Source: Nostoc cf. commune SO-36
GTDB lineage: Bacteria > Cyanobacteriota > Cyanobacteriia > Cyanobacteriales > Nostocaceae
NCBI RefSeq assembly: GCF_023734775.1
Contig: NZ_AP025732.1
Coordinates: forward strand, 4,896,501 to 4,960,500
Length of the DNA: 64,000 nt
Direction of reading: 5' to 3'
Made by a program: the position numbers and the translations under genes. The notes below the pieces were generated by a model. The model searched no databases. It was not told where the DNA came from and worked only from the letters and a program-made list of their open reading frames with translations. Below, piece by piece: positions 38,074 through 53,081 of this stretch (its first letter is position 1; each line of letters opens with the position of its first letter).

Positions 38074-39954
38074 ATGTGCGGAATTGTCGGATATATAGGC
38101 ACTCAAGCAGCGACAGACATTTTACTGGCTGGGCTGGAAAAACTAGAGTACAGGGGCTATGATTCTGCTGGAATCGCCACTATTTGGGAAGGTGAAGTAA
38201 ATTGTGTGCGGGCAAAGGGAAAACTCCATAACCTGCGTTCTAAACTAGAACAGATAGAATCTCCTGCCCAAATTGGTATTGGTCATACACGCTGGGCAAC
38301 TCATGGTAAACCAGAAGAGTACAACGCCCATCCCCATTTGGATACGGCAAAGCGAGTGGCGGTGGTGCAAAATGGCATTATCGAAAACTACCGCGAGTTA
38401 CGCGAGGAACTCAAAGGAAAAGGACACGAGTTTCTTTCTGAAACCGATACTGAAGTCATTCCCCATTTAATAGCCGAATTTTTAAAGATTCCTCCCTCAT
38501 CTTCCTCATCTCCCTTTTTAGAAGCGATTCGCCAAGCTGTTAACCACCTAAGAGGAGCATTTGCGATCGCAGTTATTTCTGCTGACTACCCCGATGAATT
38601 GATTGTTGTTCGTCAACAAGCACCTTTGGTAATTGGTTTTGGACAAGGGGAGTTCTTTTGTGCATCTGACACGCCTGCGATCGTTGCTTACACCCGTGCA
38701 GTGCTACCTTTAGAAAATGGCGAAATTGCCCGCCTTACACCTTTGGGCGTTGAGATTTACAATTTTGCTGGCGACAGGTTGAAAAAACAACCCCGGCTGC
38801 TCAACTTCAATCCTGCAATGGTAGAAAAGCAGGGATTCAAACACTTCATGCTCAAAGAAATCCATGAGCAACCAGGGGTAGTAAGAGCTAGTTTAGACGC
38901 TTACTTTAATAATTTTGGAGAATCTAGCGAATCGCCGATCAATCTTGGTTTACCTGCGGATTTATACAACAATTTAGAACAAATTCAGATCGTCGCCTGT
39001 GGTACGAGTTGGCACGCAGCATTAATCGGAAAATATTTAATCGAACAACTAGCAGGAATTTCAACTCAGGTACATTATGCTTCTGAATATCGCTATGCAC
39101 CATCACCTGTGACAGCTAACACATTGATCATTGGCGTTACCCAATCAGGTGAAACGGCTGATACTCTAGCAGCTTTGGCAATGGAAAAAGAACGTCGCCA
39201 GGGGAAAGAACCCCAATATCAAGGGCGACTACTGGGCATTACCAATCGCCCCGAAAGTAGCCTTGGTGATATGGTACCGCATGTCATCAGTACCCTAGCA
39301 GGAATTGAAATTGGGGTGGCGGCGACAAAAACTTTTACCGCCCAACTGATGGCGTTTTATGCTTTGGCATTGGATTTAGCGGCTCGTCGTCAGACAGTTT
39401 CAAAAGACACATTGGAGAAAATTATTAATGGGTTGCGGCAGATTCCCAAAGAAATTGAGGCAACTTTAGAAACTCAGGAACGTTTAACCGAACAGCTAGC
39501 CCATGAATTTGCTGAAACCAAAGATTTCATTTTTGTGGGAAGGGGAATTAACTTTCCTATTGCTTTGGAAGGGGCTTTGAAATTAAAAGAAATCAGCTAC
39601 ATTCACGCCGAAGGGTATCCGGCTGGAGAGATGAAACATGGCCCGATCGCACTTTTAGATGCGAAAGTACCAGTAGTTGCGATCGCAATACCTGGTAGTG
39701 TGTACGAAAAAGTTATTTCTAATGCTCAAGAAGCCAAAGCTAGAGATTCTCGGTTAATTGGTGTTACTCCCGTCAAGGATGGCGAAGCTGCGGAAATCTT
39801 TAACGATCTTCTTCCCGTCTCTCATGTAGAAGAATTACTTTCTCCGATTTTGACAGTAGTTCCTTTGCAATTATTGGCTTATCATATTGCCGCCCGTCGC
39901 GGTTTGGATGTCGATCAGCCTCGCAATCTGGCTAAAAGTGTCACTGTAGAATAG
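38074..39954 (+). CDS. glmS: Glutamine-fructose-6-phosphate aminotransferase (isomerising)
   Basis: A 626-residue enzyme making glucosamine-6-phosphate from fructose-6-phosphate and glutamine, the first step to peptidoglycan amino sugars. The class II glutaminase starts MCGIVGYIG, with Cys2 as nucleophile after Met removal, and contains LEYRGYDSAGIA, GHTRWATHG and LSETDTEVIPHL. Two SIS domains follow (VACGTSWHAALIGKYL, VTQSGETADTLAAL, VAATKTFTAQLMAFY; GRGINFPIALEGALKLKEIS). It ends with the canonical LAKSVTVE. A Ser-rich linker (PPSSSSSPF) interrupts the glutaminase domain. Confidence 0.96.
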   Translation: MCGIVGYIGTQAATDILLAGLEKLEYRGYDSAGIATIWEGEVNCVRAKGKLHNLRSKLEQIESPAQIGIGHTRWATHGKPEEYNAHPHLDTAKRVAVVQNGIIENYRELREELKGKGHEFLSETDTEVIPHLIAEFLKIPPSSSSSPFLEAIRQAVNHLRGAFAIAVISADYPDELIVVRQQAPLVIGFGQGEFFCASDTPAIVAYTRAVLPLENGEIARLTPLGVEIYNFAGDRLKKQPRLLNFNPAMVEKQGFKHFMLKEIHEQPGVVRASLDAYFNNFGESSESPINLGLPADLYNNLEQIQIVACGTSWHAALIGKYLIEQLAGISTQVHYASEYRYAPSPVTANTLIIGVTQSGETADTLAALAMEKERRQGKEPQYQGRLLGITNRPESSLGDMVPHVISTLAGIEIGVAATKTFTAQLMAFYALALDLAARRQTVSKDTLEKIINGLRQIPKEIEATLETQERLTEQLAHEFAETKDFIFVGRGINFPIALEGALKLKEISYIHAEGYPAGEMKHGPIALLDAKVPVVAIAIPGSVYEKVISNAQEAKARDSRLIGVTPVKDGEAAEIFNDLLPVSHVEELLSPILTVVPLQLLAYHIAARRGLDVDQPRNLAKSVTVE

Positions 39955-40218: not shown

Positions 40219-42088
40219 ATGAGTGAAATCCACTTACGTCAAATAAAGTCATACCTTCAAAAAACATTTAATAATTTGATTGACTTGTCAGATTATCAAA
40301 ATAAATCTGAAACAGACAGAGAGTTAATTTTCTTAACAAGAAGTCTAGCTGCATTTACTTTGATGGTTTTAGCTGATATCTCACCTCAAGAAGCATCAAA
40401 ATCGATAGTTGATGGTGGACAGGATAATGGAATAGATTCGCTTTATTTTGACAGGCGAGAAAAAATAATGTATGTATTACAGTCGAAATGGAAACAAGAC
40501 AGTAAAGGTAGTGTTAAAACAGATGAGGTAATGAAATTTACTAGAGGTTTTAAAGACTTGGTAAATGCTAGATATGACAGATTTAACTCAAAATTTAATA
40601 ATAAAACTCAAGATATTGAAGAAGCGCTGAATGACGCAGGAACAAGATTTGAAATAATTCTTGTCTATTCAGGTCAAACTCCCTTAGCAGATGAACCAAA
40701 AAGAGAATTGGATGATCTATTAGGTGAGATGAACGATTCATCAGATATTGTTAGTATGAGAGTTTTTAACCAGGCAAATATATATAATATTATATCTCAA
40801 GGAGCATCTGGCAATCCTATAAATTTAGATGTTTGCCTGTTTGAGTGGGGACAAACAAAAGAACCCTATCAATCATATTATGGGCAAGTGTCTGCTAGGG
40901 AAGTAGCTGATTGGTGGACTAAACATTCTCCTAAATTGTTCTCTTCAAATATTAGGCTTTTTGTAAAAGATAGTGAAGTTAATGAAGGTATTATCAATAC
41001 ACTAAAAAAAGAACCGGAAAAATTTTGGTATTATAACAATGGCATAACAGCTTTGTGTTCTAGTATTGGAAAAAAACCGCTTGGCGGTAGTGGAAGAGAC
41101 ACGGGCATATTTGAATGTAAAGATGTCAAAGTAGTTAATGGCGCTCAGACTGTTGGATCGATAGCAAGAGCATATCAAAATTCTCCTGAGCAAGTTGAAA
41201 AGGCAAGAGTTCTTATTCGTTTTATCTCCTTAGAAAATTGTCCTGAATAATTTGCTACAGAAATTACTCGATTCAACAATACTCAGAACCGAATTGATCG
41301 TCGAGAATTTGTAGCTCTCGATCCAGAGCAACAAAGAATAAAAAATGAACTTCACTTAGAAGGAATTATTTATACTTATAAGTCAGGTGAATCAATCCCA
41401 GATGGAGAAAAAGGTTTTGATTTAAATGAAGCTACGATTAGTCGAGCGTGCAAACAGAATGAGGTTTCTTTCGCCACGCGAGTTAAAGATAAAATTGGTG
41501 TTTTATGGGAAGATATAGAAAAACCTCCATACAAAACTCTCTTTAATAGATCAGTAAATGGTTCTAACCTTTGGAAATTAGTTTAAATCTTAAGAGTGTA
41601 GGACTTACGCTTTGACACAAAATACAAAATATGCATTTTTGAAAAACCAGAGCTGTCGTAGGGGCACAGCACTGCTGTGCCCTGCATAGCGGGGGTTTAT
41701 GTACCATCAAAGAATAATTAATCAAAGCCGGAAACGACCTATTTTCGTGAATTCATACCATGATTAATTTGTACAGTGCGTAAGTCCTAGAGTGGTAGAG
41801 AATAAATTATCAGAAGTACAAAAATAACGAGATGGAAGAGAAAAGTTATTTGCTACTCACAGTAATCGTCTCATACTACACTTGGTTTACAAAGCCTTAC
41901 CAGATAATTTTTTTAGCATATCATCTAATTTAACGCCAGTACAGACTGATGATATTCAATCTATGACCTCAAAGTTTTTGGGAAGTATTATGAGTGAAAG
42001 TAGCAACCTATTTCCAACTTGCTATCCGGCAAATATCTTCAGAAATGTCACAAAATGCCAGGAAATTGTGGAAAAAATTTTAAACTGA
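40219..42088 (+). pseudogene. AIPR family abortive-infection protein gene, decayed
   Basis: The reading begins MSEIHLRQIKSYLQKTFNNL and shows the AIPR landmarks VDGGQDNGIDSLYFD, FEIILVYSGQTPL, FWYYNNGITALCSSIG and VVNGAQTVGSIARAY. TAA at 41248-41250 stops it after ISLENCPE, yet the same frame goes on FATEITRFNNTQNRIDRREF...GVLWEDIEKPPYKTLFNRS. A second TAA is at 41584. A 190-bp element then splits the gene. After it the frame resumes VVENKLSEVQK, a third TAA (41825), RDGREKLFATHSNRLILHLV and VYKALPDNFF...FPTCYPANIFRNVTKCQEIV, the family C-terminus. The intact ancestor would have about 557 codons. It converges on the DUF499 gene. AIPR proteins are phage-resistance factors with little-known mechanism. 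Confidence 0.88.
41593..41794. mobile_element. 190-bp MITE with AGGACTTACGC ends and 6-bp flanking repeat
   Basis: The element 41599-41788 starts TAGGACTTACGC and ends GCGTAAGTCCT. AGAGTG flanks it on both sides (41593-41598 and 41789-41794). Deleting the element with one flank (196 bp) joins ATC-TTA-AGA-GTG-GTA-GAG in frame, supporting a 6-bp duplication. A TA duplication is the alternative, but it would not restore the frame. Inside is the perfect palindrome GGGCACAGCA-C-TGCTGTGCCC (41662-41682). AGGACTTACGC ends are frequent in cyanobacterial MITEs. Confidence 0.75.
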
Positions 42089-42183: not shown

Positions 42184-45100
42184 TTATTCTTGTTCAAATC
42201 CCTGATTACTAAATTTGAGAACCCGACAATTCTCGCTGACTGTGCGAATCACGTTCTCTGGGACTCCTTCTGGGACAGTGACCTGAAGTTCCAAGGTAAT
42301 TTCTACTTCAGCATCTACCAAACTACTAAGGTGTTGAATAACCTCGTCTGCTATCTGTCCTATGTCACGTCTTAGCCGCAATGCGTCCAATTTGACTGAA
42401 CCATAGAAACGTTTTGGTGGAACTATGACAATTACTTGGCTATCAGAGGAGCCATTTTCTGTTACTACAGTGTCAATAGTTTTTTCCTTGTCAGTGTTAT
42501 AGCTTCCTGTTTTTTCTTTAACTGCTGTTGGAGTTACAGGTTTAGCAGCAGCATCTGCCTCAAACTGGCGTTGCGCTACTTCTGGCTTAACTATCAGATT
42601 TTGACTGCTAAGGGTTACAGTAATGTGTTCAGCTGCTTTCAAACCAAGATAACGTCCTTTGGATTCATCCCAGCCTGTGGCATAAGCAAAGTTTTCATTC
42701 CACAGTAATGCTGCAACTCCTTCTGCGATCGCTTCTAATAGCACTTGTTGATTTTTGATGCGTGGCAGGTAAAGGTAGTATGCTAAGTACTCCCACAACT
42801 TCTTAAGGTCGAGGTGGTTTACATCGCGCCAAAGGTATGGGTCGAGGGCTTCTAGACGCAGACGACTAGCGGCATAGTTAGAAATCAAATGTTCTTCATG
42901 AACTGCTTTGCGACTTGCTTGCACAATAGGAGAGTCTTGCTTTTGCAATCGAATTTCTTGCCATTCAATCTCTCCTTGGGGGTCGGGTTGCATCGGCACT
43001 AACAGCCAGATGTAAGCTTCCTGAATTAAACTTTTTACATCTTTGTCGGTTTGCTGTTGTTTGGTCGTCGCCTGATTGCTTTGAAAAACATCTAAGTTTA
43101 AAGCTTCTTTATCCCGAATAATCGAATTCCAGGCGAGGTACTGGCAAACAGATTGTTCTAATAGCTCCAGTTTTGCCTTATCTGGTGCCAGGAACAGCAA
43201 CATATTTTTGCAATACCGAGGACTGGCTCCTTTTTGGTTCAGTATTTCTTCGGCTCTGGTGCGGGCTTGGGTTTCGCTTTCCTTATTTTTATGGGGGTGC
43301 TGTGGCCCCATGACAACCAGCCTTACAGCCATTTCATCAGGAACATCTGCCGAGGAGCCGGGAGCAATATGTACTCCAGCAAACTCGCCGCGCTGCTTGT
43401 CAGCCTTTAAGCGGAGAATGATTTCATCCCAAACTTTATCCTGATCCTGTTGGATTTGCTCGGCTCGGTCTTGCGCAAGTCTGGTGACACTAGGCTGAGT
43501 TGAGAACCAGTAACGAGTGTTATCGACATAAAGATGTGTGGACTGGTCGGTAAGTCGGCGCAAAGCATCGCCAAAAGTTGCTGCACTTTCCCCTGGTTGA
43601 ACACACCCCAACTTGATCCGATGATCTTCTACACCGCGATTGGCTGCTCTCAGAGTGGGAGCAGAACCAAGGTAAATCGTCCGAGCGACGCGGCGACAGG
43701 CAGAGTAACGTCCTAAGTTCGGATTTTGGCGATCGCACGCCAATGGGAGAGAATTATATCCATCTACATCTTTTTCAATAACTGGCACCCAGTTATCTTC
43801 CAGGTAGCGAGTCAATTCTGTTTGTACCTGTCCGTCATCCATTGGGACGCTCGCAGGCATGATTAACAAACTCTTGTCCTGTCCTTCCCAAAGTGAATGA
43901 ATCACCTTTGCCATCAGTCGCAGCACACCCCGCGTGCGTTGGAATTTGTCGAGAGTTGACCAGTCATTATAAAGCCGGTCAAACAGTTCTGGATGGATAG
44001 GATAGGCATTTTCTAGCCGCCGTTTATAACTAGCTTCTCGGCATTCACTAGGAAATTCCTGAGATTGATTTTGGTACATTTCTGCAAAGGCACGGATGAT
44101 GGCATCACGGGCAATAAAGCCATTTTCTTCCGTGATGGGTTGAAACAGCCGCCGCCGCACAATTTCAAAGCTTTCATCGGCACTTGCTGGTCGCCAAGGA
44201 GATTCAACTCTGCCAATAGCATTTTTGAGTCTACTTAAGGCTGCTTTACCGCGATCGCCTCCAATTTCATTATCAGATGCAGGAATACTCACGACCAACA
44301 GAGTTTGGTTAGCGTTTTTTGCCGACTCACTCAAAGTCTGGGCAAAGGTAAAGTGAGTGTCAAAGCTGCCCCCCGGAAGGTCGTTTACTTCGTGAAGCTG
44401 TCGCGCATAAGCTACCCATTCATCAATTAAAATCAGGCAGGGTGCATAGCGGTTAAACAGCAGCCGGAGGGTATCGCCAGGGTTCGTTGAAGTTTCATCT
44501 GCTTCTCGAATCATATCGTAGGCTTCCCTACCGCCCAGTTGCCAAGCTAATTCGCCCCAGAGTGTGCGGACAACTGTGCCATCTTTTTTAGGTTGAGGCT
44601 GACCGGGAGAAATTTTATTTCCTACCAGCACTGCTGTGTTAACTTTTGGCGGAGGTAAAACATTTGCCGCTTCCAGCACTGGTTCCAATCCGGGTAACTT
44701 GGATGCTGGAACTCCCATGAACAGGTGGTATAGTGCCAGCATCGCGTGGGTTTTGCCGCCACCAAAGTTAGTTTGGAGTTCGATAACGGGGTCGCCTTGA
44801 TTGCTAGAAAGACGTAACAAGGCATTTGTGAGCAGTTGCTTTAGCCCTTCGGTGAGAAAAGTACGACTAAAAAACTCTGTAGGTATGCGGTATTCGTCGG
44901 AACCTTCATCTAAATAAACTTGCCAAAGGTCAGCAGCAAATTCTGCTTGTTGGTAGCTACCAGAGGCAACATCTGGGTGAGGCGTGACAATTTCCCGCCA
45001 AGGTTTTAAACCGCCTACAGGATTGCCTTCTAGAGGTTGGAGAGTAGCACGACGAGTTTCACGACGGGCTTGTTCTGTAAAGCGCAACCGCAAAAGTTCT

Positions 45101-45510
45101 TGTTTTTGTTTATCAACTTCATCTGCTTCTGGTGCGGAAAAGGCAGAAAGTAACCGCGATACGCTATCAAGAGCGCGATAGGCATCATCTGTAGAGAGTG
45201 GCTTGTTGTGCGCCCAAGAGTTGCGCGTGTCAATTAATTCGACAACCAAGCTTCTTTCAGCATTGCCCAGAGTCTTTTTGAACACCTCACGCCACTGATT
45301 AGACATGAGTTTCAGCAGTGCTGATTCGTCCTGCTTGAGAATTTGCTGAACATTACGTCTTAAGCTGTGGTCTTCTGGAACAAAAGGTGTAGCGGCAACT
45401 ACCCACTTATCGCCATAAACGGAACGCATTTCCCTTTCCACAAAAGGATATAAGCCGTCTCTCAAAAGGTCTAGCACCCTGCCAACTCGTTCGCGGTTAC
45501 TTACGGACAT
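42184..45510 (-). CDS. DUF499 (COG1483) AAA+ ATPase with N-terminal HEPN (Swt1-like) domain
   Basis: A 1108-residue defence-island protein. Residues about 1-125 form a Swt1-like HEPN domain with R96-N-S-W-A-H101, the Rx4-6H motif typical of HEPN ribonucleases. The DUF499 ATPase follows: P-loop NFGGGKTH (248-255) and Walker B LILIDEW (359-365), with an R-rich helicase-like centre. The C-terminus (about 960-1108) has a long Thr/Lys linker and RFYGSVKLDALRLRRDIGQI, a small extra domain. DUF499 ATPases travel with DUF1156 methylases and SNF2-DUF3883 helicases in predicted anti-phage systems, as here. It is the last gene of the minus-strand cluster, 127 bases after the methylase stop, and is intact. 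Confidence 0.88.
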   Translation of the reverse strand: MSVSNRERVGRVLDLLRDGLYPFVEREMRSVYGDKWVVAATPFVPEDHSLRRNVQQILKQDESALLKLMSNQWREVFKKTLGNAERSLVVELIDTRNSWAHNKPLSTDDAYRALDSVSRLLSAFSAPEADEVDKQKQELLRLRFTEQARRETRRATLQPLEGNPVGGLKPWREIVTPHPDVASGSYQQAEFAADLWQVYLDEGSDEYRIPTEFFSRTFLTEGLKQLLTNALLRLSSNQGDPVIELQTNFGGGKTHAMLALYHLFMGVPASKLPGLEPVLEAANVLPPPKVNTAVLVGNKISPGQPQPKKDGTVVRTLWGELAWQLGGREAYDMIREADETSTNPGDTLRLLFNRYAPCLILIDEWVAYARQLHEVNDLPGGSFDTHFTFAQTLSESAKNANQTLLVVSIPASDNEIGGDRGKAALSRLKNAIGRVESPWRPASADESFEIVRRRLFQPITEENGFIARDAIIRAFAEMYQNQSQEFPSECREASYKRRLENAYPIHPELFDRLYNDWSTLDKFQRTRGVLRLMAKVIHSLWEGQDKSLLIMPASVPMDDGQVQTELTRYLEDNWVPVIEKDVDGYNSLPLACDRQNPNLGRYSACRRVARTIYLGSAPTLRAANRGVEDHRIKLGCVQPGESAATFGDALRRLTDQSTHLYVDNTRYWFSTQPSVTRLAQDRAEQIQQDQDKVWDEIILRLKADKQRGEFAGVHIAPGSSADVPDEMAVRLVVMGPQHPHKNKESETQARTRAEEILNQKGASPRYCKNMLLFLAPDKAKLELLEQSVCQYLAWNSIIRDKEALNLDVFQSNQATTKQQQTDKDVKSLIQEAYIWLLVPMQPDPQGEIEWQEIRLQKQDSPIVQASRKAVHEEHLISNYAASRLRLEALDPYLWRDVNHLDLKKLWEYLAYYLYLPRIKNQQVLLEAIAEGVAALLWNENFAYATGWDESKGRYLGLKAAEHITVTLSSQNLIVKPEVAQRQFEADAAAKPVTPTAVKEKTGSYNTDKEKTIDTVVTENGSSDSQVIVIVPPKRFYGSVKLDALRLRRDIGQIADEVIQHLSSLVDAEVEITLELQVTVPEGVPENVIRTVSENCRVLKFSNQGFEQE

Positions 45511-45637
45511 AGATTTTTTATACTAGTTTTTCTTTTAACTCAGGGCTGCTGCCTCACAATAGCTACATCTACTCTGGGCGTTAGAGCCACCCAGAATGTA
45601 TTAATGGGCTGAAGCTAATAACGAAAGTCGAAAGTAA

Positions 45638-48155
45638 TTAAAGTAAAGCCATTTGCAAGGGAGTCGATTCTTCGGTTTCAGCAGCGAGGCGAGATATTTC
45701 TGGCCAGGAAATCACTAAGCTGTTGTAAGCGACACCTTCAGCAGCCCAGCCTTTTCTGTCGCAAATGTTATACAGCCGATAAGCTAATTCCCTTGCTGCT
45801 TCTCCTATGGTTCCCAGTTGAGATAGCAAATTTGCAGCACCTTGATTTCCAGCACCGTCTTGCAATTCCCGAATCATGTGTTGTGTTGCTTCCCAGACGG
45901 TGAGGCGATTATCGGTTTGGGGATTCCAATTTTTGGCTAATTCGTCGCGGCGCAATAGTCGCACTTTACCTGCTTTGGCAGTGAGGATGCCAGCGTCTAC
46001 TAAGCCTTGTACTGCTGTATTCTTAGCTTTGGATAGGGTTTCGGCATCGCCAAATAACCCTTCAGTAAAGGTGTGCTGTTCATACCAAATCAACGCAAAA
46101 CGGGTTTCTGCATCAAATTCTCCTTCTTGTTCGACCAGGAATTCGTCTAGGGTTTGGTTAATCAATTGTAGGGCAGTGCGAACAGGCATTGGTGTGCCAT
46201 CTGATTCCAAGACTTTGTTGTAGCGGGAGTAAATTGCCATCCCAGGGCCAATGCTAGCTTGTGCCAAGTCTACCGGAGCGATGTTTCCTTGTTGGAGTTT
46301 TTGTAGTGCGTCAGGGAGTTCGCGTTTGAGGGTATTGACGAATTGGCGGCGGGTACTAAATGGAGCGGTTTGTGGGCGAGGGCGGCAGACAAGTACGATG
46401 GATGAGGCGAGAGCATTAGTGCCGCTAGCTACTGTACGATTGCTTAATTCTGTACGCATAGGCATAGTAGCAGTGATGCTAAAACCTGCTTGTATTAAAC
46501 CTTCTAGCATGGTTTCCCATCCAGTTGAAGCGACAGCAGAATTTACTCCTCCTTCATCAGTATCTTCTGACTCTGTTTGTTTAAATGCGTAAAAAACTGA
46601 AAATGGATAATCAGGATGTACTGCCTCACGCATTAGTGTAAAAGCTTTATTTAATCCCTCTTCAAAAAACTTTTTAGCTTTTTCTTTATTGCCACCAAAG
46701 CGATAGGGAGTAGCAACTAGTTCTTTTTCTTTTGGAACAGCAATAGTATGAAAAAGATCAGGATAAATAGAGCTTAAAGAACGACGTAGCCAGACATAGA
46801 AAAAATCCGATAGGTCAGCATAGCTAATATTGTCATAGTAAGGTGGGTCTGTACAGACAACAATTGATTTTGCATAGCTTAAAATATCTGTTGTAGTCGC
46901 ATCTATTTGTTTAACGTTGCCAACCCCTTCAGCAACTAAATTTTTAAGCGCACGAACTATTGTGTTAATTGTAGTATTGTAATCGCCTGCTGCACTATTA
47001 AATATATTGGATTCTGCATAATCCCATACCATTGGAAGTGCTTGTTTAGTGAATGCATGGATTGCTTGATCCATACTTGGCTTCCAGGTAACTAGACTAC
47101 ATAAGGGCTACAGATATATGCTGTTCATTAGGAGGTAAATAAATACGTCCTTTATTTCCTTCTGCAACAATTACCATTAGTTGAGCATCATTGCGTTTAG
47201 CACGAAACTCTGCCCGAATCTTTTCTTCACTGGCTATTTGATTACATACTAAACAACAAAACTTTGCACCGCGTCCAATCTTTGGAGGTTCTGGTACTTT
47301 CCCTTTGCCAGTCTTGACTTGAAAAGACACAACAGGCGGTTGCTGTTCCCTATCAACAATTGGTTCTACCCAAGCTTCTTTTCCCTTCTTTGTCGAAAGC
47401 ACAAAAGAACGCACCAACGGTATTTTTGCGCCACAAGCAGGGTTAGGACATTTCACTGTTCTTGCCCACAACCAAGCAATAACCGTTGCCTCACCACCAC
47501 CATACTCCTGCGGTACATTCACTTTTGGGTAAAGATGCCCAATTTGCTTAAAAGCTTCATCTCGCATCCATTGCCCGTAATAGCGAACATCTTCAGCTAA
47601 TCCCTGCGCCCCAAACCATTTTTTAGTAGCTAAAGAGTTTTTGTGAGAATCAGGGTTAACCGGAGGCTGATTTGCAAACTTTGGCGGAATTTCAATCAAA
47701 GCTTTGGTAATCAAAACCGCCACCGGATTAATATCACTACCATGTGCCTCCAAACCCAATCTTTGCGCTTCCAAAGGTATCGAACCCCCACCGCAAAATG
47801 GGTCTAGGACAGGCGGCGGATTGTTATTTGTTGATTTGAGAATTTCTGCTTTAGCTGCGTCTAAAACTTCCTGATTATTGATATTTTCCCACTTCACTAA
47901 TTGCTCAATAATTTCAAACAGGCGTTTTCTCTCTGTATCCTGCGCCTCTTTTGTAGGAAATTTATCAGGATGACTTGAGGGGTCATCTACCAAAGACGAA
48001 AACAAAACTGCCCGACAAGTTGCTAGCGGCCGCCGCGCCCACCATAAATGTAGCGTCGAAGGGTGTCCATGCCTAATTGATTTTTCTCTGGCAGATTCTT
48101 TGTTAATTGCTTCTAGTGGTAACGCGACTTCGATTAGCTTCTTGCGGTAGGTCAT
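45638..48155 (-). pseudogene. DUF1156 (COG1743) adenine-specific DNA methylase with internal deletion
   Basis: The N-terminal frame (48155 to 47097, 352 residues) has the DUF1156 start KKLIEVALPLEAINKESARE, then HPSTLHLWWARRPLATCRAV, SAM motif I LDPFCGGGSIPLEAQRLG (about 117-134), and a zinc ribbon (CPNPACG...CCLVC). It ends RIYLPPNEQHISVALM. The C-terminal frame (47074 to 45638, 478 residues; the homologous reading begins a few codons earlier at CSLVTWKPS) has PMVWDYAESNIF and the catalytic TDPPYYDNISYADLSDFFYV. In intact relatives these parts are separated by roughly 100-150 residues, but only about 20 bases remain here. That block is lost and the frame is broken, so methylation activity is doubtful. 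Confidence 0.88.
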
Positions 48156-48470
48156 TCATTTGGCCAGACTGGTATAATCGAAGTCTGTATTTCTACCAGC
48201 AAGCAGCGCAAAACATTCCGAATGAGTGGGCTAACGGAATCATTGCATCAAATAATTTAGTGGGCAATTAGCCTTTGTTGATTACTGCTTACTTAACTTA
48301 GTTACAGAGCTTCGTCTGGCAATTATAGTCATTGTGATACAGTCTAAGTCGAGTAAAATTACTTAAAAATGCCTAAAAATATATAGTTTTAATAATTGAA
48401 CAATTGCACATTATCTTTACGAGAAAGCTTCTTCTCCAGAAGGTAATAAATCCAAGAAGGGTAAAAAACG
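48156..48470. promoter_or_regulatory. Divergent spacer between methylase and XRE genes
   Basis: 315 A+T-rich bases with no supported gene. The 45 bases before the XRE start read in frame as SSPEGNKSKKGKKR and a stop, which could be the tail of a lost upstream gene. AGAAGGG serves as the XRE ribosome site. Promoters for both directions should be here. Confidence 0.4.
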
Positions 48471-48797
48471 ATGAATTCTAACACAATTTCTTGGGATTCT
48501 ATCCGTGATGAGGTTTTAGCAGATTCAGAGGTAAAGGCTGAATACGATGCCTTGGAGTCAGAATTCCAGTATGCAAAACAAGTTATTGCTTTAAGGAAGG
48601 CTAGCAGCTTAAATCAACGGGATTTTGCTAAGTTGGTTGGCATTAAACAGCCACAACTGGCTCGGATTGAATCTGGGAAACAGGTTCCTAAAATTGAAAC
48701 CCTAGCAAAACTCGCTAGGGGTGCAGGTTACGATGTCAAGATTCGCTTTGTAGCACCCAAAGGAAAGCGATCGCACCAAAAAACGATCAGCAAATGA
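48471..48797 (+). CDS. XRE-family helix-turn-helix protein (HigA/antitoxin-like)
   Basis: A 108-residue protein with a Cro/C1-type HTH at about 40-95 (QVIALRKASSLNQRDFAKLV, GIKQPQLARIESGKQVPKIE, TLAKLARGAGYDVKIRFV). The N-terminal SEVKAEYDALESEFQYAKQV is the usual extension of HigA-type antitoxins fused after a RelE/HigB partner. No toxin gene is adjacent, so it may be an orphan antitoxin or a regulator of the defence cluster. It is the only plus-strand gene inside that cluster. Confidence 0.8.
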   Translation: MNSNTISWDSIRDEVLADSEVKAEYDALESEFQYAKQVIALRKASSLNQRDFAKLVGIKQPQLARIESGKQVPKIETLAKLARGAGYDVKIRFVAPKGKRSHQKTISK

Positions 48798-48858
48798 ATT
48801 AACCCTGTAGCATTTATTCTAGAGAAAGCTAGAGTTCTGAAATTTTGGCATATTTGAG

Positions 48859-49245
48859 CTACCCAAAATCATCAGAGAATAATGGCACATCATAAAATTT
48901 AAACTTTTGGTCTACTGTAATTATTGTTAAACCTTCTACCAAAGCTTGAGCAATTAACATCCTATCAAAAGGATCTTTATGGTGTAGAGGCAAATCAGCA
49001 ACCTTTATTCCATGTGCCAATGTCATAGACAAAATCTCAAACCGACTGAAGCGCAAAGCCTCTTCCAAATTCCCAGGAGCAATTAACTTTCCTAAAGACT
49101 GTTTAATTGAAATTTCCCAAGCACTAATCACACTGACGAAAATTAAATTTTCAGGATTAATAATTACCTCTGGTACCCGATCTGACAATTTAGAATCATT
49201 TTCTAAAAACCACAACAAAATATGAGTATCTAATAAAAAGCTCAC
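48859..49245 (-). CDS. PIN-domain toxin (VapC-like)
   Basis: A 128-residue PIN ribonuclease. Acidic catalytic residues are visible: Asp6 in FLLDTHILLWFLEND, Glu in ISAWEISIKQSLGKL, Asp in HKDPFDRMLIAQAL and the later TVDQKF. Such toxins cleave tRNA or mRNA. The start is GTG at 49245, whose G is also the last base of the antitoxin stop (TAGTG), giving translational coupling. It sits inside the defence cluster between helicase and methylase. Confidence 0.9.
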   Translation of the reverse strand: MSFLLDTHILLWFLENDSKLSDRVPEVIINPENLIFVSVISAWEISIKQSLGKLIAPGNLEEALRFSRFEILSMTLAHGIKVADLPLHHKDPFDRMLIAQALVEGLTIITVDQKFKFYDVPLFSDDFG

Positions 49246-49523
49246 TACTCATCCCCATAAAATGCTGCAATTACTTCTTCTGAAGTCTCATCAAAATCAT
49301 CAGCAATTTTAACTTGTCCCTGCCAAAAACCCGCAATTCTTGGCTTTAAGGCATCATTTAAATCAGCTTTAGTAACTGTAGGCTCAGGTTGAGTCAAAGG
49401 CAAAACTTTTGCCAAAGGGACACCCTGATGAGTTAGGGTAACTTCAACATGATTTTGGATATCTAACAATAAATCAGCTAAATTATCAGATAAGTCAGCA
49501 ATATCAAAAGTTTTTGGTGACAT
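49245..49523 (-). CDS. Phd/YefM-type antitoxin
   Basis: A 92-residue antitoxin. The N-terminus SPKTFDIADLSDNLADLLLD and HVEVTLTHQGVPLAKVLPL form the Phd/YefM DNA-binding fold. The C-terminus (WQGQVKIADDFDETSEEVIA) resembles the toxin-neutralising tails of antitoxins paired with PIN toxins. It is translationally coupled to the PIN gene and starts 40 bases after the helicase stop, so it is likely part of the same transcript. Confidence 0.88.
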   Translation of the reverse strand: MSPKTFDIADLSDNLADLLLDIQNHVEVTLTHQGVPLAKVLPLTQPEPTVTKADLNDALKPRIAGFWQGQVKIADDFDETSEEVIAAFYGDE

Positions 49524-49562
49524 TTTGCTTATGCTCTATTGATTACCAGCAATATAATTATT

Positions 49563-52500
49563 TTAATTTGGCTCAGTTCCCTGTTGCCACAACTCCAGCC
49601 AATCATAATTAACACTTGTCACGGCAAAATCTGGCTCTTTATGGAACGGACGGTGTAAGTAGTGAATAGAACAATTACCTTCCATATCTTCTGCTAAAGG
49701 CACTTGCACTAATGCCAAAATAAAATTGTCTGGCTTGTTTAGAGCGGTAATAATTTCATTCTTTGTCACTGTCACAGTTTTAGCACCTGTAATTCTCCCT
49801 TTCACTTCAATAAATCGCAACTGTCCCGTTTCTGGAATACGCGACTCAATATCATAGCCGCACTTCTGATAACTCACATCCGTGGGTTCATACCCTAAAT
49901 TGCGTTCTACTTCGATCACAGCCGTCATTGCTGCCTTTTCTACTCGTTCCGTCTCCTTGGCAAACATCGCCGTTGTTACCTGTTGTTTGCCTTGCATTCG
50001 TTGCAGCAAGCCTACTGAAACTACCAACGCACCCCCAACCACCACAGGCGGTAATGGCGATAATCTACGTTCTTGCTCTAATTCCTCCAAACGTTGCATT
50101 AACCGTGCTTGCAAATCATCAGCTCGTTGACGTGCTTTACCTGAGTTAATTTTGGCATTAGGCTTGCCAGCTTCCTCTTGGATTTTCAGTTCTTCTGCCC
50201 GATGATCCCAGTAATTAATCTCCTTGCTTAATCTATCTTTTACTGCCGTCATCGTCTTAGCAATTAGTTCCTCTTTCCGTTGCTTGAGTTCTTGAAGATG
50301 TTGGGGAACAAGGTGAGCGATCGCATAACTCTTAGCTTTTGCTTCTAAATCTTCTCGCAACCAAGATTCTTCTAAAACTTTTTCCACAACACCCTTTTCC
50401 TCGTCTGTTAGCGGACGGTAATTCAGGTAAGGCGCGTAACCTGCATTGCAGGTATTGCCTTCTGCATTGATTTCTACATATTGCATCCGCCGCGATACTA
50501 AACGCCTAGAGCCATTTAGATTTGTCCGCGCATCTTGTATGGAGTGTTCTAGATAAACTAAGGCGCGGGTTCCTTCGCTGGAATCATTTTCATCAACTAA
50601 AATAGTGCCTTGTTTCAACAAATCCCGGTGTCGTTCCAAAGTCAGATCAATTGTGGCATCCAGTAGAGAATGTCCAGAACAGATGAAAGCAGCTAAGGGT
50701 TTACCAGAAATGCTGATTAAATCTTTTTCAAAGCAGACACGTTCGTAACGTAGCAGCAACGGTTCTCCTACACCAATTTGCCGCCCTCGATTGCGAATAA
50801 CTGCTGGAACATGACTGATTTCGTAACGCTGGGGTTCTCGTTGACGCAATGTTCCACCTAATTGGGTAAATGCTTCGAGGAAGAAAGAAGCAATAAAATG
50901 AGGTTGCAACCGTCGCGCCTCTGCCCTTTCCATTTCTTCTCGAATTTGCTGCACTTTGGCGATATCCATCGAATCTCGTGCCAAAGCTCGTTCTTCTAAA
51001 AGTTCGCGTAGTCGCTGTTGGTCGAGTTTATCATGTACGACTTGGTTGAGTCTGTCTCGCACCTCTGGTTGATCGCCATAGCGAATTGCTTCAATTAATA
51101 ATTCTCGTAATTCCGTCCCTGCGATCGCTTTTTCCCAATACATCAAATACTTGACCCCCCAGTGCCTTTTGCTCTGCCTCTATCTTTTTCAATAACGCCA
51201 AATAGACATCGCCTTCACGAGTGCCTTTTGCCACTAATTCCATAAGTGACATACCTCCGTCTGCCCAATCCGGTGAATTCGCCCAAAACGCTGTTCTAGG
51301 CGGTTAGGATTCCAAGGCAAATCGTAATTAACCATAAGGTGCGCCCTTTGCAAGTTAATCCCTTCACCCGCAGCATCCGTAGCTATTAAGACTTGTACTT
51401 CAATATCTTGGGTAAACGCCTCCTGCGCTTTGCGGCGTTCTTCGCGTCCCATTGCGCCATGTATATTTACTACAGCTTCATTACGTCCAAGTAGCGTCCG
51501 AATCCGATCTGTCAAATAATTTAATGTGTCCCGGTACTCGGTAAAAATCACGAGCTTGCGCCGATGTCCTTGGGCGTTGAACATTTCGGCATCATTTTGC
51601 AACAGATTCGAGAGTTCTTCCCATTTTTTATCTTTACCACTACGTCGCACTCGTAGTGCCAGTTGCTCTAATTCTTCTAAAAGCTTAATTTCTGTTTGTA
51701 ATTCTGCGATCGTCCGTGATGCTGTAGCTAGGTCAACTACTTCCTGTTCTGTTGCTTCTCGTTCTTCACCAGGAATATCCTCTAAATCATCTTCTAAGTC
51801 TTCCAGATCCAGAACTTGCTTAAATTCAATGATGGTTGCATTACTTCCCCGCCTCAAAACTTCTTCTTGCCTCAGCCGTTTTTGCAACCTTTCTCGACGG
51901 CGTAGCAGCGATTGATAGATAGCTTCTGGGGAAGAAGCAAGCCGACGTTGCAAAATAGTCAAAGCAAAGCCAACATTACCTTTGCGTCCTTCATTTTCTA
52001 AAGCATCGGCACGATTAAATTCCTCGCGGACGTACTCAGTGACTCGCTTATAAAGTACCGCTTCTAAATCCGATAGTTCATATTCTATAGTGCTAGCTTG
52101 GCGTTCTGGAAATAGCGGTTTTCCATCAAATTTCAGCAAATCTTCTTTAACCAATCGCCGCATTAAGTCAGAAGTATCTGCTACATGAACACCATCGCGG
52201 AAGCGTCCTTCAAATCTGTCTCCATCCAATAACGCCATAAACAACTGGAAGTCTTCCTCTTTGCCGTTATGTGGCGTTGCTGACATTAATAAAAAATGCC
52301 TAGTTAAAGTTGAGAGTAACTTACCAAGTTTGTAGCGTTTCGTCTCTTTAATTTCACCACCAAAAAATGAAGCTGACATTTTATGAGCTTCGTCACAAAC
52401 AACCAAATCCCAGTCTGTCTGCGCTAGCTTTGCTTGTAAATCTTGATTACGGCTGAGTTTGTCTAGTCGCACAATCACCAACGGCATTTCAGCAAAAGCA

Positions 52501-53081
52501 TTTCCAGTCACTGCTGATTCAATGCGATCGTTGGTGAGAATTTCAAAGCGTAAATGAAACTTTTGCGACAATTCATCTTGCCACTGTGGGGCTAAACTGC
52601 CGGGACAAATCACAAGGCAACGATGCAAATCACCTCGGATGAGCAATTCCCGCATCAGCAACCCCGCCATAATAGTTTTACCTGCACCTGGATCATCTGC
52701 TAAGAGAAAACGCAGAGGTTGACGAGTCAACATTTCCCCGTAAACGGCGGTAATTTGGTGGGGTAAGGGTTCGACTAGAGAGGTGTGAACAGCTAGCAAG
52801 GGGTCGAACAGATAAGCTAGACGGATGCGGTGCGCTTCTGATGCCAGACGAAAATTAGCCCCATCAGCAGTAAAACTCCAAGCACCACCAGAGGTGATTA
52901 TTTCCAGAGTCGGTTCTCTATCTCGAAAGACTAACTCATTCCCTAGCGTGCCGCTAGCATCTTTGTATGTTAATTCCACAACATCAGAGCCATGCCACTG
53001 AGCATCAACGATGGCGACAATACTGTTTGGCAGGATACCTTGTACTTGCGTGCCTTTTGTCAAATCCTCAAGTCTAACCAT
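49563..53081 (-). pseudogene. SNF2-type helicase with C-terminal DUF3883 (DrmD-like), two one-base frameshifts
   Basis: The first frame (53081 to 51234, 615 residues) holds the SF2 core: Walker A DDPGAGKT (129-136), DEAH (230-233), LMSATPHNG, and motif VI QRFGRIHRIGQ. It stops after TEVCHLWN. A middle frame reads LVAKGTREGDVYLALLKKIE and QKALGGQVFDVLGK. A third frame (51146 to 49563) continues AIAGTELRELLIEAIRYGDQ and ends with DUF3883 (GYDIESRIPETGQLRFIEVK, a PD-(D/E)XK-like core). Restoring one T (AATTTAGTG, near 51235) and removing one A (GGAAAAGCG, near 51135) gives one protein of about 1170 residues. Such helicases occur in DISARM and related systems. Decay or sequence error cannot be told apart here. 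Confidence 0.87.

Follow-up and report, generated by a model that had tools for sequence, protein, structure and literature searches.

The defence system Hma was named by Payne et al. (2021) for its helicase, methylase and ATPase, and was reported as 1,638 instances in 26 phyla (PMC8565338). The system is thus widespread, and its mechanism is largely inferred. Rakesh and Krishnan (2026) regrouped Hma as Type-1 BR, recorded the HEPN-fused form of its DUF499 ATPase in 1370 taxa, described HmaB as an N6 methylase with a recognition-region insert, and cited Liu et al. (2024) for an experimental phage-defence result for the helicase (PMC12839542). A HEPN-DUF499 protein (Ava_2192 of Anabaena) and a SNF2-DUF3883 protein were placed in a restriction-modification operon by Anantharaman et al. 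(2013; PMC3710099). That Hma operons can harbour other defences has been described before: Hma-embedded candidate defences (HEC) are lodged between the Hma genes (Payne et al., 2024, as reported in PMC12111858 and PMC12988326), and Septu inside Hma is mentioned in PMC12255303. In our study, we examined a Hma locus of Nostoc cf. commune SO-36, present in a stretch of 64,000 nucleotides (NZ_AP025732.1, positions 4,896,501 to 4,960,500), hereafter the window. The locus is an unremarkable copy, decayed not long ago, of a defence system already known; what merits further attention is how far the recognition region has diverged, that loss of hmaB is tolerated, and that the slots between the genes are rich in PIN. 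Coordinates without a handle are positions in the window; G, C and L numbers are our handles for genomes, contigs and loci, G000 being the genome of the window.

Gene content and lesions of the operon

Nine open reading frames (ORFs) of the cassette were scanned with PADLOC and Pfam profiles. HmaA, HmaB and HmaC were found adjacent on the same strand with profile E-values from 4e-136 to 0, hmaA and hmaB each in two frames, and judged by these matches the gene set is a Hma operon, also named Type-1 (DUF499-centred) BR. The N-terminal piece of hmaA (51234-53081, minus strand, 615 amino acids) contained the SNF2 helicase core and matched positions 1-620 of the 1176 in the HmaA profile (E=0), with a Pfam Helicase_C match of 4e-24. 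The C-terminal piece (49563-51146, minus strand, 527 amino acids) matched positions 659-1171 (3.7e-183) and contained, at residues 402-482, the NOV_C nuclease domain (1.3e-21), formerly called DUF3883; the piece carried YDI...EVK, and the domain corresponds to the C-terminal restriction endonuclease of the Snf2 helicase. The N-terminal piece of hmaB (47097-48155, minus strand, 352 amino acids) contained DUF1156 (9.3e-33) and the S-adenosylmethionine-binding motif DPFCGGG (profile 8-391 of 967, 4.4e-136), and the C-terminal piece (45638-47074, minus strand, 478 amino acids) contained the motif DPPY (profile 503-958 of 967, 1.3e-185). The hmaC gene (42184-45510, minus strand) was one open frame of 1108 amino acids, matching positions 3-940 of the 941 in the HmaC profile (E=0), in which a Swt1-like HEPN domain (HEPN_Swt1, residues 11-123, 4.5e-40) was fused to the DUF499 AAA+ ATPase (residues 301-935, 1.2e-31). 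The HEPN motif Rx4H (residue 96) and Walker B were retained in all 14 HmaC proteins compared. Searching the 14 with a text pattern for Walker A gave no match, yet the HmaC of the window has GGGKT at the expected place. A Tudor domain, a trait of Type-1 BR at the N-terminus of the helicase, gave no match in that part in the Pfam scan, and sequence searches of the PDB with HmaC, PIN and antitoxin returned no match.

Between hmaA and hmaB the window contains an open frame of 92 amino acids (49245-49523, minus strand), a putative Phd/YefM-type antitoxin, followed by an open frame of 128 amino acids with a PIN domain (48859-49245, minus strand; Pfam PIN 2.3e-17), a putative toxin. The two frames overlap by one base, antitoxin first, and fit the layout of a type II toxin-antitoxin pair (Phd-PIN). 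The antitoxin had no Pfam match and its match to a VapB model was far below cut-off, but some of its relatives among the 120 listed carried the source name Phd/YefM or antitoxin. An earlier description made from the letters of the window (the sequence-only reading) had reported four minus-strand blocks with SNF2-DUF3883, DUF1156, HEPN-DUF499 and Phd/PIN domains, and an intact ATPase beside a broken methylase and helicase. The blocks proved real and correctly placed when ORF coordinates and strands were re-checked, the domain calls were backed by Pfam or PADLOC (that of the antitoxin by the names of its relatives only), and the frames agreed with the state given for each gene.

The lesions were located by comparison with related loci. 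Alignment with six relatives showed the hmaA frame to be interrupted by two indels of one base each, both in short runs and spaced about 105 bp, which offset the frame of each other and leave the net length unchanged. In hmaB, compared with G153, about 100 codons of the recognition region were missing and the frame changed there; the gap between positions 391 and 503 of the PADLOC profile agrees with this. In pairs including the genome of the window, the ratio of nonsynonymous to synonymous substitution (dN/dS) was 0.07-0.13 in hmaC, 0.02-0.10 in hmaA and 0.04-0.18 in hmaB; over all pairs compared it was 0.07-0.14 in hmaC (10 pairs), 0.02-0.16 in the hmaA parts and 0.04-0.23 in the hmaB parts. 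For the broken genes these values cover the first piece of hmaA and 225 codons of its second piece, and in hmaB two stretches of 200 and 149 codons. The low ratios in the tested parts point to recent breaks. The operon is therefore, very probably, a recently decayed Hma (Type-1 DUF499 BR) copy with an embedded Phd/PIN toxin-antitoxin pair, and DNA modification and cutting are most likely dead in this genome.

The unchanged net length of hmaA also makes an assembly error possible. If both indels were such errors, hmaA would be truly intact and hmaB alone would be lost, as in G211, G190, G113 and G193. The single-base size of the indels, their short runs, their mutual cancelling and their spacing would suit this explanation, as would the dN/dS values, in pairs including this genome, of 0.04-0.05 in the first hmaA piece and 0.02-0.10 in the tested part of the second. 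However, genome completeness is 99.98% across 5 contigs, hmaC is clean, and the large deletion in hmaB is not explained by base-calling error, so that we hold this alternative to be rather unlikely.

Related loci and the HmaB recognition region

The HmaC of the window was searched in 217 genomes of its family, 98 of which matched at E<=1e-3, many with other DUF499 types or with the HEPN domain only. A second search, covering 388 genomes sampled from its order, gave 45 with a match at E<=1e-110. From the family search, matches of about 30% identity and HEPN-only matches were left out, except for the window genome's own plasmid locus; of the 45 order-level genomes, six were already included and five (G464, G373, G451, G424 and G295) were left out because hmaC or its remnant lay near a contig end. 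In total, 54 regions (20+17+17) of up to 20 kb each, with G150 present twice, were examined together with the window. Fourteen of these 55 regions were without one of the genes inside the stretch and L057 was set aside, leaving 40 loci with pieces of all three genes. The recurrent co-occurrence of the three families expected by the sequence-only reading was thus found.

The order hmaA-hmaB-hmaC was present in 38 of the 40 loci, the exceptions being L111, with an additional hmaB in front, and L123. All three genes were full-length open frames in 26 of the 40, by our reading of the loci. In nine loci (G146, G211, G190, G110, G113, G193, G387, G150 and G285) hmaB was broken or not found while hmaA was uninterrupted, though about 60 codons short in G146; G150 and G285 had no hmaB within the region fetched, and the other seven belong to the 40 loci. 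The opposite state, a broken hmaA with a full-length hmaB, was found in three loci (G153, G261 and G252), and both genes were broken in four (G000, G299, G177 and G034). In G484 hmaA was cut by the contig end and was scored neither broken nor intact.

These losses bear on whether the remnant in the window has been deliberately kept, with the intact HEPN-ATPase serving, by itself or jointly with the PIN pair, as a stand-alone abortive effector. The hmaC of the window is open and conserved, with the low dN/dS over 10 pairs given above, and hmaC was full-length in six of the nine loci with hmaB lost beside an uninterrupted hmaA (G146, G211, G190, G113, G193 and G285). In the other three (G150, G110 and G387) hmaC was truncated, and the tested parts of the broken hmaA and hmaB have similarly low dN/dS, so that the conservation of hmaC may date from before the break. 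We consider a kept effector improbable.

Several other states of the locus were observed. Short hmaC scraps, 60-97% identical, were left in several genomes (L060, L061, L062, L063 and L064), and Hma loci thus seem to be often lost. Many genomes of the family contained a separate gene, mostly of about 385-425 amino acids, that begins with a sequence similar to HmaC's HEPN domain (mostly 40-53% identical, e.g., G124:C1:4266830-4267312); these genes were picked up through matches limited to roughly the first 150 residues of the query. In G150, whose locus is present twice in the assembly, one copy near a contig end, a MzaB-like GHKL ATPase, a GIY-YIG gene and a sigma-like helix-turn-helix (HTH) gene occupied the expected place of hmaB (L053:6605-10199). 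In G034 a type III CRISPR-like module (Cas10, RAMP proteins and CARF) was found tightly between hmaB and hmaC (L057:7751-19196), and the remaining start of hmaA and end of hmaB were joined in one open frame. We rejected the idea that this HmaA-HmaB fusion recurs: of 8000 proteins scored, the best 120 included none, apart from the fusion itself, that covered more than 86% of it.

The recognition region of HmaB was found to diverge more than the rest of the operon. Pairwise comparison of 34 full-length HmaB proteins (561 pairs) gave a mean identity of 58.0% for the recognition region, 74.5% for the flank on its N-terminal side and 67.9% for that on its C-terminal side; the mean for HmaC was 65.3%. 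Rank correlations with HmaC identity were highest for HmaA (0.80; 276 pairs), intermediate for the two flanks of HmaB (0.57 and 0.73) and lowest for its recognition region (0.37). In all 22 pairs whose HmaC proteins were at least 85% identical, the recognition region was 58-85% identical; G075 and G085, for example, were about 97% identical in the parts of HmaA and HmaC compared and 68% identical in the recognition region. The gap-free identity of such close pairs was 50-75% over HmaB residues 361-780, 80-98% in HmaA and 76-98% in HmaC. The last 230 residues of HmaA showed little association with the recognition region, the partial rank correlation given HmaC being 0.12. A gapped profile had hinted at a variable C-terminal stretch of HmaA that follows HmaB, but this was not confirmed once gaps were left out.

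Since HmaA and HmaC lack the variability of HmaB, the choice of the restriction site would also come from HmaB. If so, losing HmaB would silence the system instead of killing the cell; specificity in HmaB, together with HmaB-dependent cutting, would explain the loss of hmaB beside the cutter. The natural hmaB losses beside uninterrupted hmaA, taken with the divergence of the recognition region, lead to the testable prediction that Hma restriction needs HmaB.

Intergenic slots and neighbouring genes

In the hmaA-hmaB slot of five genomes of the genus (G000, G153, G125, G110 and G150) the Phd/PIN pair was found together with an opposite-strand HTH gene; PIN was frameshifted in G150. G143 contained open Phd and PIN frames beside hmaC scraps only. 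The dN/dS of PIN was 0.07-0.26 among G000, G153, G125 and G110, and that of the antitoxin was 0.07-0.62 on few differences. In the window, the XRE-type HTH gene (48471-48797, plus strand; HTH_3 2.5e-12) lies between PIN and hmaB; it is antitoxin-like, no toxin partner was noticed alongside it, and it is kept in all five genomes. Other slots contained Fic/Doc (G146), other PIN genes, MazF-type toxins, Uma2, DUF559, YhcG, XisH/XisI and AAA ATPases, and the models HEC-01A, HEC-02A and AriA each matched 3-4 of 114 slot ORFs. In G014, genes assigned by eye to the XisI and XisH families were present between hmaB and hmaC (L048:8754-9487).

PIN domains were enriched in the slots. Of 142 slot ORFs, 28 were removed by text filters (low-complexity, spurious-looking, or in L057), and in the Pfam scan PIN was found in 19 of the remaining 114. 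In the 296 kb of flanking sequence of these regions, 70 ORFs of PIN size were scanned likewise, and 2 of them matched PIN. A local PIN profile seeded from the slots matched 20 of the 142 slot ORFs, in 17 of the 40 loci, 19 of the 20 in operon orientation; in stop-to-stop frames the same profile gave 22 matches in 93 kb of slots and 2 in the 296 kb of flanks. The genome-wide PIN density was 273 matches in about 80.4 Mb (12 genomes chosen from the carriers). This excess of PIN pairs inside the operon raises the question of whether they are guards of the operon or free riders.

For an intact copy we infer the following way of working. HmaB would methylate adenine, its variable target-recognition region fixing the site, the AAA+ ATPase HmaC would assemble the complex, and HmaA, with its SNF2 motor and DUF3883 nuclease, would move on and cut DNA without the mark, the HEPN domain of HmaC serving as a last-resort RNase. 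The PIN pair would lie in a slot where toxin-antitoxin or other defence modules have inserted time and again, and would be an addiction module or an independent abortive module able to outlive the operon. Tentatively, we suggest that HmaB alone may read the target for marking and for cutting, and that its recognition region may turn over like the specificity module of Type I or BREX systems, so that loss of the methylase would be harmless; the slots would then be preferred landing places of operon-oriented PIN toxin-antitoxin pairs that guard or outlive the operon.

A number of observations weigh against the preferred explanation of a decayed Hma operon working in the way given above. Single-gene losses of hmaB and hmaA numbered 7 and 1 in the window's family and 2 and 2 outside it, and hmaB loss as a general rule was rejected, the excess being limited to that family. 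Several of the genomes are drafts, so that part of the breaks may stem from assembly. In no pair of loci was the recognition region clearly more alike than its flanks (best excess below 2 points); donor exchange was thus not directly seen, and fast divergence would also fit. The base modified by HmaB is disputed, being given as m5C (5-methylcytosine) in PMC8565338 and assigned to an N6 methylase in PMC12839542. Among the slots, loci related by descent are not independent, and shared descent inflates the counts; the local PIN profile was seeded from slot PINs, whereas the Pfam scans were not so seeded. The Pfam scan of the flanks covered 70 of 270 flank ORFs, and HepT-like RNases made up 2 of these 70, so that the flanks are not free of toxin genes.

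Beyond the operon, the converging AIPR gene of the sequence-only reading was found to exist (40219-41250, AbiU/MzaE-like; Pfam AIPR 3.5e-27), with an in-frame stop after which the frame continues for about 110 codons (to 41580). It lies outside the range given for the cassette, however, and was dropped as a member, its protein matching none of the 26 fetched regions searched. The 3' end of glmS (38074-39954) faces hmaC and is 2.2 kb away in G000; glmS adjoins hmaC in G085 and G190, lies within about 8-12 kb of it in G153, G146 and G125, and is far from Hma in G150, G211 and G075. A Tn7-type insertion behind glmS was not upheld, glmS being distant in the last three of these nine genomes; the surroundings of glmS are possibly an insertion hotspot. 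The same genome contained a second, open DUF499 system (L144:4500-12774 and L059:5494-8748; G000 C3, about 12.5-28.7 kb of a 228-kb contig), with a DUF499 ATPase, a DUF1156 methylase and a PbeA/PLD-type helicase, and with IrrE-UPF0175 and PDC-S70 genes lodged inside. From its gene content it looks like a Type-2 BR, although DUF3780 was not found among the seven ORFs scanned.

Comparison with known systems

The view that the cassette is a new, uncharacterised modification-linked system is highly improbable: PglZ, DrmB and DrmC were not among the families listed for the nine cassette ORFs, but the three core genes match Hma profiles nearly whole-length and the domain arrangement has been in print since 2013. 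The sequence-only reading was right to propose a modification-linked defence cassette with a HEPN-ATPase, and to separate it from DISARM and BREX, but it was incomplete, since the system is already named as Hma or Type-1 BR (PADLOC profiles; PMC8565338, PMC12839542, PMC3710099).

DISARM and BREX share with the window a SNF2 helicase homologous to the first half of HmaA (DrmD, 3.1e-110; BrxH, 4.5e-97), and DrmA was a weaker match (5.9e-73) among the best 25 of 58 families for the helicase. The HmaA profile was, however, far better (E=0), and the partner genes, DrmB and DrmC for DISARM and PglZ and BrxC for BREX, were not among the families listed for the nine ORFs. The HEC share the presence of foreign defence genes between Hma genes, and some slot ORFs matched HEC-01A, HEC-02A and AriA, whereas the Phd and PIN proteins of the window matched no PADLOC model. 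The neighbourhood of Ava_2192 contains a HEPN-DUF499 protein with SNF2-DUF3883 in a restriction-modification operon, as in the window; no toxin-antitoxin insertion is mentioned in the passage on it (PMC3710099).

With Type-1 BR as described in PMC12839542, the window shares the HEPN-DUF499 ATPase, the DUF1156 methylase and the Snf2 helicase with a C-terminal restriction endonuclease, and DUF3780, the mark of Type-2, was not found by Pfam among the nine cassette ORFs. It differs in that its copy is broken, and in that PIN, a less common backup effector in that account, is common in the slots here. Compared with Hma as described in PMC8565338, the window has hmaA and hmaB broken with a Phd/PIN pair between them, and its HmaC starts with a HEPN domain, residues 1-167 lying outside the HmaC profile match; the three-gene operon is the same, and all three proteins of the window match the Hma profiles.

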